NCBI RefSeq assembly: GCF_964355755.1
Contig: NC_092670.1
Span: forward strand, 14,011,201 to 14,075,200
Source of the DNA: Antedon mediterranea
Taxonomy: Eukaryota; Echinodermata; Crinoidea; Comatulida; Antedonidae
Length of the DNA: 64,000 nt
Direction of reading: 5' to 3'
Positions 18,570-63,865 of this stretch are shown piece after piece. Positions within the stretch are counted from its first letter, which is position 1, and each line of letters starts with the position of its first letter. The notes below the pieces were generated by a model that searched no databases, was not told where the DNA came from, and worked only from the letters and a program-made list of their open reading frames with translations. A program made the translations under genes and the position numbers.

Positions 18570-19090
18570 GTGGCGTTTCATATTATAATAAAAATGTAAA
18601 TATGCATATGGTGTTAACCTATCATCTGATCAAGGCTGTAATCTATCACAAGGTGGCGTTTCATATTATAATAAAAATGTAAATATGCGTATGGTGTTAA
18701 CCTATCATCTGACCAAAGCTGTAATCTATCATAAGGTGGCGTTTCATATTATGATAACAATTTAAATATGCGTAAGGTGTTAACCTATCATCTGACCAAG
18801 GCTGTAATCTATCATAGGGTGGCGTTTCATATTATGATAAAAATGGAAATATGCGTAAGGTGTTAACCTATCATCTGATCAAGGCTGTAATCTATCACAG
18901 GGTGGCGTTTCATATTATGATAAAAATGGAAATATGCGTATGGTGTTAACCTGTCATCTGATCAAGGCTGTAATCTATCATACGGTGGCGTTTCATATTA
19001 TGATAAAAATTTAAATATGCGTAAGGTGTAACCTATGGTAACCTATCATCTGACCTTAATTTATCCTAATGTGGCGTTTCATACTTGGTA
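18570..19090. repeat. 83-bp satellite, six units plus degenerate flank
   Basis: Units start with GTGGCGTTTCATATTA at 18570, 18653, 18736, 18819, 18902 and 18985 (exactly 83 bp apart) and then at 19071. Each contains TATGCGTA.GGTGTTAACCTATCATCTGA and GGCTGTAATCTATCA. A weaker copy of the start (ATGGCGTTTCATATGATAAG) is seen at about 19164. Units differ by a few bases. Confidence 0.93.
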
Positions 19091-32365: not shown

Positions 32366-32765
32366 CTAGTTGAGTATTTACTTTAGTACAAACTCTTTGA
32401 GTTGAATAAGTTCTCCAACACCTTGAGTTGAGTAAATACTCCATTCCTTTGAATTGAGTAAGCACTCCAACATGTTGGGTAAGTACTCAAACTCTTTGAG
32501 TTAAGTAAGTACTCCAACATGTCGGGTAAGCACTCAGATCCTTTGAGTTGAGTAAATTGTCCAATATGTTGAGTAAGTACTCAAAAGTACCCTTTGAGAA
32601 GTAAGTACTCTGGGTAAGAAATCAAACCTTTTTACTCAATCATGTGAGACTCATTCTCTTTGAGTAAGTACTTCGATATTTGAGAATCAACTCATTGTGA
32701 GTATTATAACATGTTGAGTTCTGAAACCAAAACTTCAACATGTACCAAAATCATTTGAGTACGTT
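32366..32765. repeat. Dispersed-tandem TTGAGTAAGTACTC repeats
   Basis: About a dozen imperfect copies of TTGAGT(T/A)AGTAAGTACTC separated by short links such as CAACATGT and AAACTCTTTG. Both orientations occur because AGTACT is palindromic. No constant period is visible. Confidence 0.85.
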
Positions 32766-56200: not shown

Positions 56201-56312
56201 ATATTTAATTGTTTTATTGACTATTTAATACATTTTAATACATATTATATTATTATTGTCTAGTAGCCATTGATTTACTAAATTGTTAACCTAGTTTTTG
56301 TTTTCTTTTCAG
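53276..56312. other. Intergenic or MTMR9 5' region, no exon fixed
   Basis: AT-rich DNA. Since the MTMR9 start exon opens at a splice acceptor, a non-coding first exon should lie upstream. A donor-like CCA|GTAAGAATA at about 55799-55808 is one candidate, unproven. The left arm of foldback family R is at about 56065-56150. Confidence 0.5.
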
Positions 56313-56329
56313 CCAAAGAATTCCATGCC

Positions 56330-59300
56330 ATGGAGTTTGTTGAGTTTATCAAAACGCCAAAAGTCGACAACGTCGTACTACACAAGCGATATCAGCCACG
56401 GGTCGAGGGAACGCTATGCCTCACTGGTCACCATCTTATTCTGTCATCAAGAAAAACAAACACAGAGGAACTCTGGGTAAACTTTCTTGTGTTATTATTA
56501 TACCCCTTTCACACCAAAACTCAGGGTTTATGACCATTCTAAACGTCGAGAAATTCCGGATATACCCCTTTCACACCAATCTAACAACACCGGGGTTTAT
56601 AAAATGAAATTGTAAATGTCGCTCTCTATTTTGTTTGTTTACATAGCGACGATCATTAGAATCATTTTAATTAACAATATTTTTAATTTAATAATTACTT
56701 TTAAAAGTCTCAGAATGTTTTATTGATACTACTTATACTAAAGCAATCGTGTGAGGAAGACCTTTTGACCTAAAACTCCGGAGTTTTGATGTTGGTACCT
56801 TTCACACCAAAACACAGGGGCGACCCCGCAGTTCGATCTCTGGAGAATGTTCAGCTGTTAAACCCCGCAGTTTTAAACTCCGGAGTTGCTTGATTTTACC
56901 TTTCACACCAAAACAGCGGGACGTCAACTCCGGAGTGTCTCCGGAGTTTTGATTTTGGTGTGAAAGCGGTATTATTCACACAGTATTAACTTGGTCAGTA
57001 GAATTCCACTAATTGACCCATCACTTTTTTAATTATTGCAAATAAATTAAATATTTGTATTTATCTGCAGCTTCTTCATAGCAATATTGATGCCATAGAA
57101 AAGAAGTTAATAGGGTCAATGGGTCAGCTGACCATCAAGTGCAAGAACTTTAAGGTCATTCAATTGGACATTCCAAATGTTGACGACTGTCTCAATGTGG
57201 TCAGTTCTATAGAATCACTCTCCAATATTGGTAAGTTTGATTTTTCTTCTGTGACGTTGCTACAGTGAGACACCCTATTCAAGAAACAGCCTATTGTATA
57301 AAAGGGACACTTTCCAGAAACGATTGAGGCCCAATACAGTATATGTTTTAACGCTACAGCCAACTTCTTTTCAGAGTACACCTTTTTCACTATACAATAG
57401 TCTGTGTCAAATGTCACGGTCCAGATTGATTGATATGTTGAGAAATATCGAGAGCTCTTTTTTCAGAATCATGTGAAGAGCATAAGAAATTTGTCTTTTA
57501 ATACAGCTGCAGTAACAACTAAGTTTATGTAAATTACTGCAGTTTTTTTTTTTATTTGTAGAAACTATAAGTATGATGTATCCATTCTTCTATCGTCCAA
57601 TGAGTACAGAGAAAACTGAAAATGGTTGGGAAGCATACTTACCAGAGATTGAATTTAACAAGATGGACAAAGATGTGTGGCGGCTTAGCACTGTTAACCA
57701 ATCATATCAGGTATAAAAAATATTATTGTACTTAAATATGCACTATTACCAAAGTTAGACTCTGCGTAAATATGAATTAATAATCAGTTTGTTTACCTAA
57801 TTTTTGCACCTAATAGTTATTAAGTAATATAAAAATAGTACGAAAGTTCAAAAAGCTTTTGAAAAAATCAGCAGCTGATATAAATAATAGTAGTAATCTT
57901 CACTTTCACCAAAAACTGGATTGTAAAAAAAAACAATATTGACCTAAAAATCGTAATTTAAAGCAAAATATATTCTGATAATTATTTTTGTTGGTTTCTC
58001 ATTCTACGGAAACTACAAAATAGTACATATAATAAATTTTACTTTAATTTCAGATAATTCACTTTATTTAACTGAAAATGTGGAAAAAAATCATAATTGT
58101 TTTTCTTTAATACATTAAGTATATAGGGTTTAGGCTTGCTTGTAACACATATATATATATATATTTTTAGGTATGTAAAACATACCCCCATGCAGTAGTT
58201 GTACCCAAGACAATCACGGACGATATGTTGAAGCAGTCTGCTAGTTTTAGACATGGAGGGCGCTTTCCTGTGTTAAGTTATTATCACAAGAGTAATAAGG
58301 TAAAGGCTTAATTTTCAATGTCGTAATAAATTGCATCCTAATGAAATATGGAATTTAATTGTGTATTCATTTCAACATCTTCCCTTGGACACTGTCTACA
58401 CTATCAAACTAGTTTGACAAAAAAAGTGTGATGTGCCCAAATATAGTAGTGATATGCTCAAATATGGTAGAGTGATATGACATCATCATGTCCATATATG
58501 GGCACATCAAATTTTTTGTCAGATAAAGTTTGATGGTGCAGACAAAGCTTTAAATTCATTGACTTCATCCTAGGACTTCATCTCTGTTTGTACTGAAACA
58601 TGGTAGCATTTGTTAAATTTATTTTAAAGTACAGTATTACAAAACCTCTACTTTTATGACAAGGCATTTGATAGTCGGGTCATGTATAATTTACAAGTGT
58701 CCCAACCTAGTGTAACTTTCTATTTTAATTTGTTTAAAATATTTCTAAATTTTTAATTTTTATAGACAAGTTTGTTGAGATCTAGTCAGCCATTAACAGG
58801 CCAGAGTGATAAAAGGTGTAAAGATGACGAGAAACTGCTAAATGCGTGCCTCGACACTAGTCACCGTGGTTACATCATCGATACACGGTCACAAAATGCA
58901 TCATTAGCATCTAGAACAAAAGGTATGAGTGACATCTCCCAAAATTAGTTTGAGCTGACCCAAGTTTTGGTAAACAAATGAATAAAATTCAAAAACCAAT
59001 TTAGCAATTACTGAATCCATTTAAACAAATTGTTTTAGTAACTCATAACAGTGAAGTTGTATTGGCATTTAGCGGAACCAGATGAGCGACAAAGGGTACG
59101 CCTTCCTCTCTTTTGACATCCGTAAAATGAAAATAATGAAATACTTTTGACAGACTATATATTTGTTAGCACTGGATCTGCCCCTGTTTACATATACACT
59201 TTTAAAAATTTGGTAATCATTTAATGTAATTTGTGTCCTATAGTACTATGTTCTCTCATCCACAAATGTGTGTTGTACGCATTGTTGCAACCATTTATTT

Positions 59301-62300
59301 GTTGAATCTTTTGTTTTTTTGTATTAGGTGGAGGATTTGAGTCGGAATCAAATTATTCCCAGTGGAGAAGAATCAATAAACCCCTGGAAAAGTATTCAAA
59401 TCTACAAGAAAGCTTTGTCAAGCTACTGGAAGGTAAATACATTATTTTATATTAAAAAGGATACATTAATCATTCCCCATTTTACAATGACTAGCACAAA
59501 CTTTACTCTGTGTGGATGGAAATATAGTGTTGTACAATATAGGTTTGATTTAATATATTATGAAGTAATCTTATTGCAAAAATTTAAATGTGTGTACAAG
59601 TGTGGATGACATACAACAGCTGACATCTCCCAATGTCCTTTTGTGTCGTATAGCTGCCACTAAATGGCTCTCATTCGCCACAGATGGACTTGTACACCGA
59701 AGTAATCTACAGTATTCTTCCGGGGGATGTACTAAGTTCTTTAAATGCACACAGAGCTATATTATAAATCAAATAGCAGCTGCATAGGCAGGGTAGATAG
59801 AAAAAATCAAACAAGTTAAAACTGCCTTGACATAAATGTATTATATCATCATCACCTGATGATGGGCTATGCATGAAACATGTGGTGTTAACAAATTTAT
59901 AGTGAGGCAGTTTTTAATTTGTTTGATTTTGATTTTTTCAATCTACAGTACTATTTGTTTAAGATATATTATAATATGCATTGTGCAACCTCCTTATTCG
60001 AGAATATTTGACAATGGATTCTTTAACTTGAAATCATAATAATCTTTATCTTTTTTAGCATGTCGGGATAGGGGTTGTTCAATGGATAAGTGGCTGACGA
60101 GGTTAGAATCATGTAGTTGGCTAGATCATGTGAAGGAGTTACTGACAACGTCTTGTCTAACTGCCCAGTGTGTGGACAAAGAAGGTAGATAGAATTACAT
60201 TTCGTACTTATGATTGTGGTCAAAAACAAATAGCAGCATCTTATCTAACCCCACAATGTGTGGACAAAGAAGGTAGATAGAATTACATTTCGTACTTATG
60301 ATTGTGGTCAAAAACAAATAGCAGCATCTTATCTAACCCCACAATGTGTGGACAAAGAGGTAGATAGAATTACATTTCATACTTATGATTGTGGTCAAAA
60401 ACAAATAGCAGCATCTTATCTAACCCCACAATGTGTGGACAAAGAAGGTAGATAGAATTACATTTCGTACTTATGGTTGTGGTCAAAAACAAATAGCAGC
60501 ATCTTATCTAACCCCACAATGTGTGGACAAAGAGGTAGATAGAATTACATTTCATACTTATGATTGTGGTCAAAAACAAATAGCAGCATCTTATCTAACC
60601 CCACAATGTGTGGACAAAGAAGGTAGATAGAATTACATTTCATACTTATGATTGTGGTCAAAAACAAATAGCAGCATCTTATCTAACCCCACAATGTGTG
60701 GACAAAGAAGGTAGATAGAATTACATTTCATACTTATGATTGTGGTCAAAAACAAATAGCAGCATCTTATCTAACCCCACAATGTGTGGACAAAGAAGGT
60801 AGATAGAATTACATTTCATACTTATGATTGTGGTCAAAAACAAATAGCAGCATCTTATCTAACCCCACAATGTGTAGACAAAGAGGTAGATAGAATTACA
60901 TTTCGTACTTATGATTGTGGTCAAAAACAAATAGCAGCATCTTATCTAACCCCACAATGTGTGGACAAAGAAGGTAGATAGAATTACATTTCATACTTAT
61001 GATTGTGGTCAAAAACAAATAGCAGCATCTTATCTAACCCCACAATGTGTAGACAAAGAGGTAGATAGAATTACATTTCATACTTATGATTGTGGTCAAA
61101 AACAAATAGCAGCATCTTATCTAACCCCACAATGTGTGGACAAAGAGGTAGATAGAATTACATTTCGTACTTATGATTGTGGTCAAAAACAAATAGCAGC
61201 ATCTTATCTAACCCCACAATGTGTGGACAAAGAAGGTAGATAGAATTACATTTCATACTTATGATTGTGGTCAAAAACAAATAGCAGCATCTTATCTAAC
61301 CCCACAATGTGTAGACAAAGAGGTAGATAGAATTACATTTCGTACTTATGATTGTGGTCAAAAACAAATAGCAGCATCTTATCTAACCCCACAATGTGTG
61401 GACAAAGAAGGTAGATAGAATTACATTTCGTACTTATGATTGTGGTCAAAAACAAATAGCAGCATCTTATCTAACCCCACAATGTGTGGACAAAGAGGTA
61501 GATAGAATTACATTTCATACTTATGATTGTGGTCAAAAACAAATAGCAGCATCTTATCTAACCCCACAATGTGTGGACAAAGAAGGTAGATAGAATTACA
61601 TTTCGTACTTATGGTTGTGGTCAAAAACAAATAGCAGCATCTTATCTAACCCCACAATGTGTGGACAAAGAGGTAGATAGAATTACATTTCATACTTATG
61701 ATTGTGGTCAAAAACAAATAGCAGCATCTTATCTAACCCCACAATGTGTGGACAAAGAAGGTAGATAGAATTACATTTCATACTTATTGTGGTCAAAAAC
61801 AAATAGCAGCATCTTATCTAACCCCACAATGTGTGGACAAAGAAGGTAGATAGAATTGCATTTGATATAAGTTGACTTCGCCTAAGCTGTCCCTGCCCAA
61901 GATTCATCATTATATTATTTATATATTGTACTGTATGTTATTTGATATTTTATTGGAAATATGCTAGTTGAATACGAAATAAGAAGAAAACAATTCCTTG
62001 GCTAACAACACAGTCCTGCTTTCATTTCTCATTACAATGTTTAATCCCACAATAATAACTTGTTTGCTATGTTGTAGGTGCTTGTGTGCTAGTGCACGGC
62101 TCAGAAGGCCTAGATGCTACCTTACAAATAACATCACTAGCTCAAGTGATTCTTGACCCAGATTGCCGAACTATGCGAGGGTTAGTATGCCTATGCCTGT
62201 TTTCTCGTTTCCTTAAATCACCTATATCTGGAGTAGAAGCATAATTATAAAGTTGAATTATAAGCCCCTCTTGAAAATAAAGTCCCAACAGCTACAGATG

Positions 62301-63865
62301 TAGGATGGGTGACCAGTGCTTGTGTCACAACAACTCTCATACTGTAACTTGTTTACAAGCAGCATGGGGACTGCCCTGGATAGCCTAATTCTTTCTAAAA
62401 GGAGACAGAGCCAGACAGTGGCAAGGAACTAATATAGACTTGTTGATTTGCTCTCAGAGAAAGAGCGAGAACATGTTTTGAGCCTGAATAACACACTTCT
62501 CAATACTATATATACCAGTAACTCGTCATTAGCCTATGAGTATATATTCTGATGATGCCAATATAACAAATCCCATTATACACTTACAAAAATTTCTGTT
62601 TCAAAATCTTGAAGAAGAAAAAATGTTGATTTATTACTATTATTATTTATAGATTCCAGGCTTTGATAGAAAGGGAGTGGATTCAAGCAGGCCATCCCTT
62701 CACAAGTCGCTGTTACAAATCTGCATTTAACCCAGCAAAGTTTAAGTTTGTTGGACCTGTCTTCCTCCTGTTTCTTGACTGTGTTCATCAGGTAAGTTAT
62801 TTATTTGGGCAATTCTTTTCTAATGCCTACCTCAATTTAAAGAGCTTTGAAACACCCACACCAACCAAATTATTGTGACATACATACAGTGATATGTGCA
62901 GACATCATTGCTGGATCCAGGATAATATCAAGTCTAGTAAACCTAATTTCTTTATTTGCAGATTCATGAACAATTTCCGTGCTCTTTTGAATTTAGTGAT
63001 AGATTTTTGATATTTTTGTTTGAACATGCATATGCATCTCAGTATGGTAAGTACTAATGTATTATATACACAGATATAAAATGTATCGAGTCTAAAGAAC
63101 TCCATAAAGCTTATATAGAAGATGATGCTGATGTGATGTTTCTTTTTGGTTGTTAGTGATAGACAAGGATGTGAACTTCAGTTATATTAAATCATTTTCT
63201 TGTTTCAGGGACGTTCTTGTGCAATAACGATGCAGAACGAATGAAAGTAAAGCTTCCAACAAAAACGATGTCATTATGGTAAGAATGATTGAAAGGTCAT
63301 GTCCTTTCTCCAAAACAGTATTGTACGCTTACCAATTTCACTCACTCTCTCTTTGTTTGTGTTTTCTATCTAGGTAGTTTTGACCACTCAAATTGTCTTT
63401 TAAATTTCCTAGTAAAAATTCTGTCCCAGTAAAACAAATAGTGATTTTTTATATTCATGCTATGGTACAAATAAATTAATTTGGTTAATTACTGGACTGT
63501 ATTATTTTATTTTTTAACATCAAAGCCTTAGAATTATATCCTGTCCATTTGTATTTTCTCTGTGGCTGCGACACATCAGTTCCACGCCCCTTAACAGACA
63601 CAGCGTGGCACAAAGATGTACATACAGTAGTACAGTACTGTTGGTATTTGTCGCAGCCAGACATAAGATCAAAGGACAAGCTCAGTGTCCTGTTGTTAGA
63701 TCAAACAGGATTCAACCAAGCATCACAACTTCTCTCAATATGACCTTTTCTATGTTTTCTTCCAGGTCATATGTAAATAAGCCAAACATACTGGAGACAT
63801 TCCTAAATCCACTGTACCAGCCAAATAATGCGGTATTATGGCCAAGTGTAGCTGCTCAGAGTTTG
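56330..63865 (+). CDS. MTMR9: Myotubularin-related protein 9 (inactive phosphatase), 3' end missing
   Basis: A catalytically dead myotubularin that in vertebrates binds and activates MTMR6/7/8-type PI3P and PI(3,5)P2 3-phosphatases on endosomal membranes. Coding exons: 56330-56476, 57071-57230, 57562-57710, 58171-58299, 58766-58922, 59328-59432, 60059-60184, 62078-62180, 62653-62791, 62962-63046, 63209-63278, 63766-63865; all GT..AG, phases consistent, 490 codons of about 550 in the human protein. The PH-GRAM part opens [18 protein letters not shown] and includes [15 protein letters not shown]. The phosphatase-like part has [47 protein letters not shown] and MSLWSYVN. Where active relatives have HCSDGWDR, this protein has VHGSEGLDA (330-338): catalytic Cys is Gly332 and Arg is Ala338. 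The C-terminal coiled coil lies outside. The first coding exon starts at a splice acceptor (56313). Intron 7 holds the exon-derived minisatellite. Confidence 0.97.
56500..56975. mobile_element. Foldback element in MTMR9 intron 1
   Basis: Opens ACCCCTTTCACACCAAAACT and closes with the mirror GATTTTGGTGTGAAAGCGGT. Internal copies of ACCTTTCACACCAAAACA occur at about 56563, 56799 and 56898, and the palindromic CTCCGGAG occurs several times. Starts 24 bases after the exon 1 donor. Confidence 0.7.
57895..58075. mobile_element. Partial MITE family D (MTMR9 intron 3)
   Basis: CACTTTCACCAAAAACTGGA, GTAATTTAAAGCAAAATAT and ATAATTCACTTTATTTAAC match the interior of family D; both terminal repeats are missing. 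Confidence 0.5.
58391..58550. mobile_element. Foldback family B copy (MTMR9 intron 4)
   Basis: ACTGTCTACACTATCAAACT, AGTGTGATGTGCCCAAATAT on the left; ATATGGGCACATCAAATTTT, TTTGATGGTGCAGACAAAGC on the right; GTGATATGACATCATCATG in the centre. Confidence 0.87.
59793..59946. repeat. 154-bp foldback (MTMR9 intron 6)
   Basis: Arms GTAGATAGAAAAAATCAAAC, AAGTTAAAACTGCC and GGCAGTTTTTAATTTGTTTG, ATTTTGATTTTTTCAATCTAC. The loop contains CACCTGATGATGGGCTATGC, a phrase similar to Penelope-type element ends; this likeness is tentative. Confidence 0.75.
60185..61875 (+). repeat. 87/88-bp minisatellite derived from MTMR9 exon 7 and its donor
   Basis: Nineteen units, defined by GTAGATAGAATTACATTT at 60185, 60273, 60360, 60448, 60535, 60623, 60711, 60799, 60886, 60974, 61061, 61148, 61236, 61323, 61411, 61498, 61586, 61673 and 61761, plus a partial unit from 61846. 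Ten units are 88 bp (ending GACAAAGAAG), eight are 87 bp (ending GACAAAGAG) and the last is 85 bp. The final 34 bases of a unit match the last 34 bases of MTMR9 exon 7 (60151-60184) at 29 positions, and the next bases repeat the exon 7 donor GTAGATAG. The array therefore begins exactly at the exon border. Units differ at only a few sites (CGT/CAT, TATGATTG/TATGGTTG, GTGGAC/GTAGAC). Open frames of 65-94 codons are by-products of the period. Confidence 0.96.
63555..63722. mobile_element. Foldback family R copy (MTMR9 intron 11)
   Basis: TGTGGCTGCGACACATCAG is partly mirrored by TATTTGTCGCAGCCAGACAT, AAGATCAAAGGACAAGCTCA, GTGTCCTGTTGTTAGATCA, which match the element at 39851-40055. Confidence 0.65.

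Follow-up and report, generated by a model that had tools for sequence, protein, structure and literature searches.

A minisatellite repeating a splice donor at the exon 7/intron 7 border of an MTMR9-like gene in Antedon mediterranea

The window considered in this study (the whole stretch of 64,000 nucleotides that was analysed, at 14.01-14.08 Mb of the 41.4-Mb contig C1, in a genome of 354 Mb) has a G+C content of 32.7% and carries on its forward strand a gene whose coding exons 1-12, as modelled, extend from 56330 to 63865. All 11 introns of the model have GT/AG ends, the 12 coding exons measure 70-160 bases each, and the 490-codon reading frame is still open where the model stops; the gene probably extends past the end modelled in the window. 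At its other side, an acceptor-like TTTTCAG ends 17 bases 5' of the model's ATG (56306-56329), which makes a 5' untranslated exon likely, and "exon 7" consequently means coding exon 7 in what follows. The predicted protein contains a myotubularin domain (PF06602, E 1.6e-135) and a GRAM domain of the MTMR6-9 type (PF21098, E 1e-16), and its best match among six solved relatives in the PDB is MTMR6 (2yf0, E 9.9e-99). The active-site loop reads HGSEGLDAT, versus HCSDGWDRT in MTMR6 (the latter motif is kept in the paralogue loci L019-L021), and is devoid of the catalytic cysteine, the absence of which we take to be the mark of MTMR9 within the MTMR6-9 group. It is from these domains and from the cysteine-less loop that we provisionally call the gene MTMR9-like, no chain named MTMR9 being present among the six PDB matches.

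Coding exon 7 (60059-60184, forward strand, 126 bases, ending in phase 1) closes with AAAGAAG and is followed by the donor GTAGATAG. The position given to this donor by a first-pass annotation of the sequence, directly behind 60184 with the intron starting at 60185, is the one found in the gene model, where the exon is joined to coding exon 8 (62078-62180, forward strand) at the acceptor TTGTAG/GTGCTTG, with GAA G plus GT GCT restoring the frame; the protein aligns without a gap over this join with MTMR6 and MTMR2 chains. The same annotation had placed a tandem array at the exon 7/intron 7 border, and Tandem Repeats Finder, combined with the gene model, confirms it: the repeat runs from 60151 to 61867 with a period of 88, 19.6 copies, 97% matches and 1% indels, and thus begins within coding exon 7 and sits at the exon-intron border. 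The start agrees with the one first proposed, whereas the proposed end (61875) lies 8 bases past that of the program. With the array, intron 7 is 1893 bp long; it would be of 232 bp if the 19 units described below were removed, and the other ten introns measure 162-626 bp.

When cut at the donor, the minisatellite (60185-61867, forward strand) resolves into 19 donor-to-donor units (60185-61845) and a partial final unit. Unit length is 88 bp in ten cases, 87 in eight and 85 in a single one (1661 bases in sum); the units fall into seven types, with a mean pairwise identity of 97.9% and a minimum of 94.3%, and each is composed of the final 34 (or 33) bases of exon 7 and of about 54 intron bases. 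The earlier wording, in which every unit ends with a 34-base relative of the exon end, was too loose, because one base is missing in 8 of the 19 units (AAAGAG for AAAGAAG), three of these eight having TGTAGAC too. The GTAGAT donor is found at 20 places, as AAG/GTAGAT in 12 of them (the true donor included) and as GAG/GTAGAT in the remaining 8, so that the announced number of about twenty candidate donors stands, as a fact of the sequence. The window contains the word GGTAGATAGAA 21 times, where 0.02 occurrences would be expected; 19 of these are the copied donors, one is the true donor and one lies at 59792, in intron 6. The latter was considered as a possible relative of the array and rejected: it is the tip of an unrelated MITE-like inverted-repeat element (59793-59946, forward strand, tip reading GTAGATAGAA, recognised from its inverted arms and its matches in the genome) that lies outside the array, and we take the resemblance as a coincidence. 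This MITE-like family is dispersed, with at least 80 match rows, its own included, obtained from the best 40 of 230 candidates.

The unit itself appears to be confined to this locus. A search of the 354-Mb assembly, which passes over very common words and in which some stretches read N, revealed no further copy, the 161-base and 293-base queries giving 20 matches each, all of them here; the possibility that the unit is a dispersed element or an introner was set aside, no second place having been found in the assembly. Minisatellites in general are common in this genome. Ten distinct arrays (period of at least 40 and at least 4 copies, overlapping rows being merged, which reduced 17 rows to 10 arrays) are present in 9 of 18 stretches sampled at chosen round positions, not random ones, on C1-C11 (179,900 bases without N), and four of them have at least 10 copies; by the same period and copy cut-off, the window contains three (18570-19036, 32389-32585 and the array in the MTMR9-like gene). 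Since minisatellites are so common, some arrays should hit exon borders by chance. As to individual arrays, the one at 18570-19036 has an 83-bp unit in 5.6 copies with 93% matches, L008:4815-6943 consists of 101-bp units (21.4 copies, 90% matches), and L014:1-10000 (C7:13.0 Mb) is satellite-like, being a tandem repeat over the full 10 kb with units of 87-252 bp and 70-80% matches.

The first-pass annotation had also derived the array from the exon, arguing that the peptide at this place is conserved in MTMR9, and had given an identity of 29 bases out of 34 between the exon end and the end of the unit. The figure is exact for the stretch 60151-60184 (forward strand) aligned to the end of the first unit, and the identity depends on the distance from the donor: it is complete over the nearest 16 bases (16/16), falls to 13/18 over the next 18, and drops to 19/54, near chance, beyond 60151. 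A match of 13/18 to the 18-mer of the unit is reached at only 2 of 60,000 positions on the plus strand of the window, so that a homology extending out to 60151 is unlikely to be due to chance. One and the same 18-mer is common to all 19 units, and five of its bases differ from those of the exon.

The direction of the copying is supported by the MTMR6-9-type frame of the exon, by two of the five paralogue loci and by the presence of the unit at a single locus. In L019 and L021, a single open frame passes through the homologous place, and neither an intron nor a repeat interrupts it; the alignment of L020 covers the place but has a stop shortly before it, so that an intron could be close by, and L022 and L023 end short of it. 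Exon 7 looks like old coding sequence, the Pfam and PDB alignments both continuing through it. The conservation that MTMR6 and MTMR2 show at the residues encoded by its end is modest. One could argue from the identity of the final 16 exon bases with the first unit that the array is in fact older, as an intronic satellite, and that the exon end was captured from it. We give this next to no credence, because the exon continues the protein family without a gap, two paralogue loci have the homologous stretch without repeats, and a satellite-first origin fits badly with a unit of which the assembly search found no copy elsewhere. The origin of the array from the end of exon 7 appears, on the sequences compared, well supported. 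We also considered that intron 7 itself could be array-born and dropped the idea, the bases 5' of its acceptor being, by eye only, unlike a unit.

Judging from this anatomy, a segment of about 88 bp (34 bases of exon 7 and 54 of intron 7) would have been duplicated in tandem, after which the downstream copy, relieved of coding constraint, would have drifted at five positions; this drift should have preceded amplification, because the five differences are common to all 19 units. Unequal exchange or slippage would then have expanded the copy to 19 units, and this expansion is probably recent, since the units are near-identical and a block of five of them is duplicated. The order of unit types is a b c d c c c e a e f a e a b c d c g, in which the block a-b-c-d-c appears as units 1-5 (60185-60622, forward strand) and again as units 14-18 (61323-61760, forward strand), the two copies being identical over 438 bases; any repeated five-unit block is obtained in 79 of 20,000 shuffled unit orders. 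Such a duplication suggests that the length of the array changes. Because the duplicated block starts, with unit 1, at the true donor, the intron side of this donor seems to have taken part in the recent exchange. The five differing bases of the exon have not been overwritten by array units, and exchange from a unit into the exon would be harmful: in our computations, an AAAGAG-type unit end placed in the exon shifts the frame and ends the protein after 328 residues; an AAAGAAG-type end causes two missense changes, C to Y and A to P. We infer that selection keeps the end of exon 7 unchanged. Assemblies can mis-size tandem arrays, and the array, or its copy number, might be suspected of being an assembly artefact; this we regard as very improbable, given that 1.7 kb of seven unit types in a non-periodic order do not resemble a simple collapse or loop, and that the contig is chromosome-sized.

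The consequences for the protein can be computed for each donor. With the true one, the frame is open through the whole model. The in-frame stop announced right behind it (GGT AGA TAG) is indeed there, and use of any of the 19 distal donors, or retention of intron 7, leads to an identical truncated product of 326 residues (ending in QCVDKEGR) that falls short of the active-site loop. Since all distal uses truncate identically, the length of the array would be expected to affect the amount of full-length message, and not the protein.

Donors were ranked with a matrix made from the gene's own donors and with the energy of pairing to U1. The splice-site matrices draw on a small set of 11 sites each, all from the MTMR9-like gene, and their scores serve for ranking, not as probabilities. 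The true exon 7 donor has a matrix score of 6.69, ninth of 12; its U1 energy is -6.5 kcal/mol, a value tied by donor 1, only donor 5 of the gene being weaker. Eleven copied donors are identical to it over the 11 scored bases (-3 to +8) and have equal score and U1 energy, and the eight GAG donors score 4.03, under all 12 true donors (5.12-10.66), although at -6.6 their U1 energy is no weaker. Of the 348 non-donor GT sites that the gene has outside the array, 4 equal or exceed the score of the true donor. The true donor gives an exon 7 of 126 bases, which the two donors behind it would lengthen to 214 and 301 and the last one to 1787; conversely, the last five donors would leave an intron 7 of 580-232 bp, which is the gene's usual size. 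The RNA of the first two units is predicted to fold no more stably than shuffled sequences (z -0.20; 83 of 200 at least as stable), and neither a search at Rfam gathering scores nor ARAGORN found a structured RNA or tRNA in the window.

One might imagine that the units erase themselves, by re-splicing within the array. Their geometry, by inspection, suits such a removal, and a tandem duplication of AGGT can create an intron, according to two papers (PMC3443670, PMC4974935). However, the AG that closes a unit has a score of -12.24 in the AAG type and of -7.32 or -6.04 in the GAG type, and no AG in any unit does better than -2.29 (a value reached in 3 of them), versus 6.06-14.52 for the gene's 11 acceptors (leave-one-out), the median of the 321 other AG sites in the gene being -6.1; self-erasure is in our opinion hardly believable. 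The related proposal that an intron was made here by AGGT tandem duplication was rejected, the AGs of the units not being acceptor-like and the true acceptor, before 62078, lying outside the array.

We think it likely that the array is a minisatellite specific to this locus, that it originated from a splice donor, and that it is for the most part tolerated as intron filler with a small cost for splicing. In the pre-mRNA, U1 would face one true donor and 19 copied ones. The donor next to the exon most likely prevails, being the only one to yield an exon of normal size: in line with what is generally known of splicing in animals, we favour exon definition, under which mainly the true donor would be used. 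Low-level use of the first one or two copied donors would bring in the stop after 326 residues, presumably followed by decay of the message, and the array could in this manner make splicing leaky. By analogy, the use of downstream repeat units as donors in human IFI6, as described in the literature, would count in favour of leaky donors. Two points weigh against such a preference for the first donor: being weak itself, it has no edge in strength over eleven identical copies, and intron definition would favour the last five donors, which leave introns of usual size. The choice among donors could moreover be shifted, because SRSF1 and hnRNP A1 bias competing donors, favouring intron-proximal and intron-distal ones respectively, as stated in a paper on this subject (PMC5585400).

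The first-pass annotation went further and suggested that array length tunes MTMR9, which we would formulate as a competition of copied donors for U1, more copies meaning less full-length protein. In its favour, the 326-residue truncation is common to all distal donors and to intron retention, eleven of the copied donors are as strong as the true one by matrix and by U1 pairing, the duplicated five-unit block hints that array length changes, and there is a precedent in human CBS, whose activity, as a review states, is lower with more repeats of 31 bp (PMC5188458). On the other hand, the matrix scores of 8 of the 19 copied donors are below those of every true donor, and a near-normal exon size is obtained only with the first one or two distal donors; regulation by array length is, to us, a possible but unlikely function. 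We are more doubtful still of an extended version that would combine dosage with a mutation switch, copy number setting the loss of message to decoys and a recurrent exchange from unit to exon producing null or reduced alleles, although such exchange would be expected to recur, since AAG-type units are identical to the exon in its final 16 bases and in the donor.

Our preferred reading, a tolerated minisatellite derived from a splice donor, finds its closest parallels in human genes, and two features of the CBS and IFI6 kind are found here: an array at an exon border, and an exon end with its donor in each unit (20 of 20 positions). No report of an MTMR9 array was found in the open-licence literature, among the matches listed. 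The VNTR of human CBS is designated c.1444_1467+7(16_21), with 31-bp units (PMC2630376), which, on our reading of the notation as it appears there, means 24 exonic and 7 intronic bases in 16-21 copies, and the review already cited describes it as non-coding and locates it where exon 13 meets intron 13 (PMC5188458). As in the MTMR9-like array, the CBS unit, so described, spans an exon end and its donor, and the copy numbers are alike (16-21 versus 19 units), but the CBS unit is shorter (31 bp, versus 34 or 33 exonic and about 54 intronic bases), and the CBS VNTR is polymorphic with a reported effect on activity, whereas the MTMR9-like array is known from the sequence of one assembly. The review's source for the relation between CBS repeat number and activity is reportedly Lievers 2001, and the minisatellite of human IFI6 (6-16, G1P3) is said to have been described by Turri et al. 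in 1995. In IFI6, two downstream repeat units act as donors and give rise to three mRNA species, according to another paper (PMC4526556). This is again a minisatellite supplying several splice donors, but the IFI6 variants, as described there, encode isoforms and their use in RNA is reported, whereas the distal donors of the MTMR9-like gene all give an immediate stop. A third comparison is with 24-bp repeats of fission yeast, in which an intron is reported to run over several duplicates (PMC3443670, PMC4974935); introns formed by AGGT duplication resemble our case in that a segment with AG/GT is duplicated in tandem, and differ from it in that the MTMR9-like array instead lengthened an intron whose own acceptor stands outside the array.

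Given the parallel with CBS, arrays of this sort would seem to arise time and again, in different animals. The MTMR9-like gene would offer a natural case of many near-equal donors with a single readout (the frame is kept by the first alone, and the truncation is identical for the other 19), which could show if splicing in this animal tracks exon or intron size at nearly constant donor strength, and could also show how minisatellites born from coding sequence are tolerated. The splice-donor minisatellite is already known in human; what appears to be new here, from the sequence, is the gene, the animal and the greater size of the unit.
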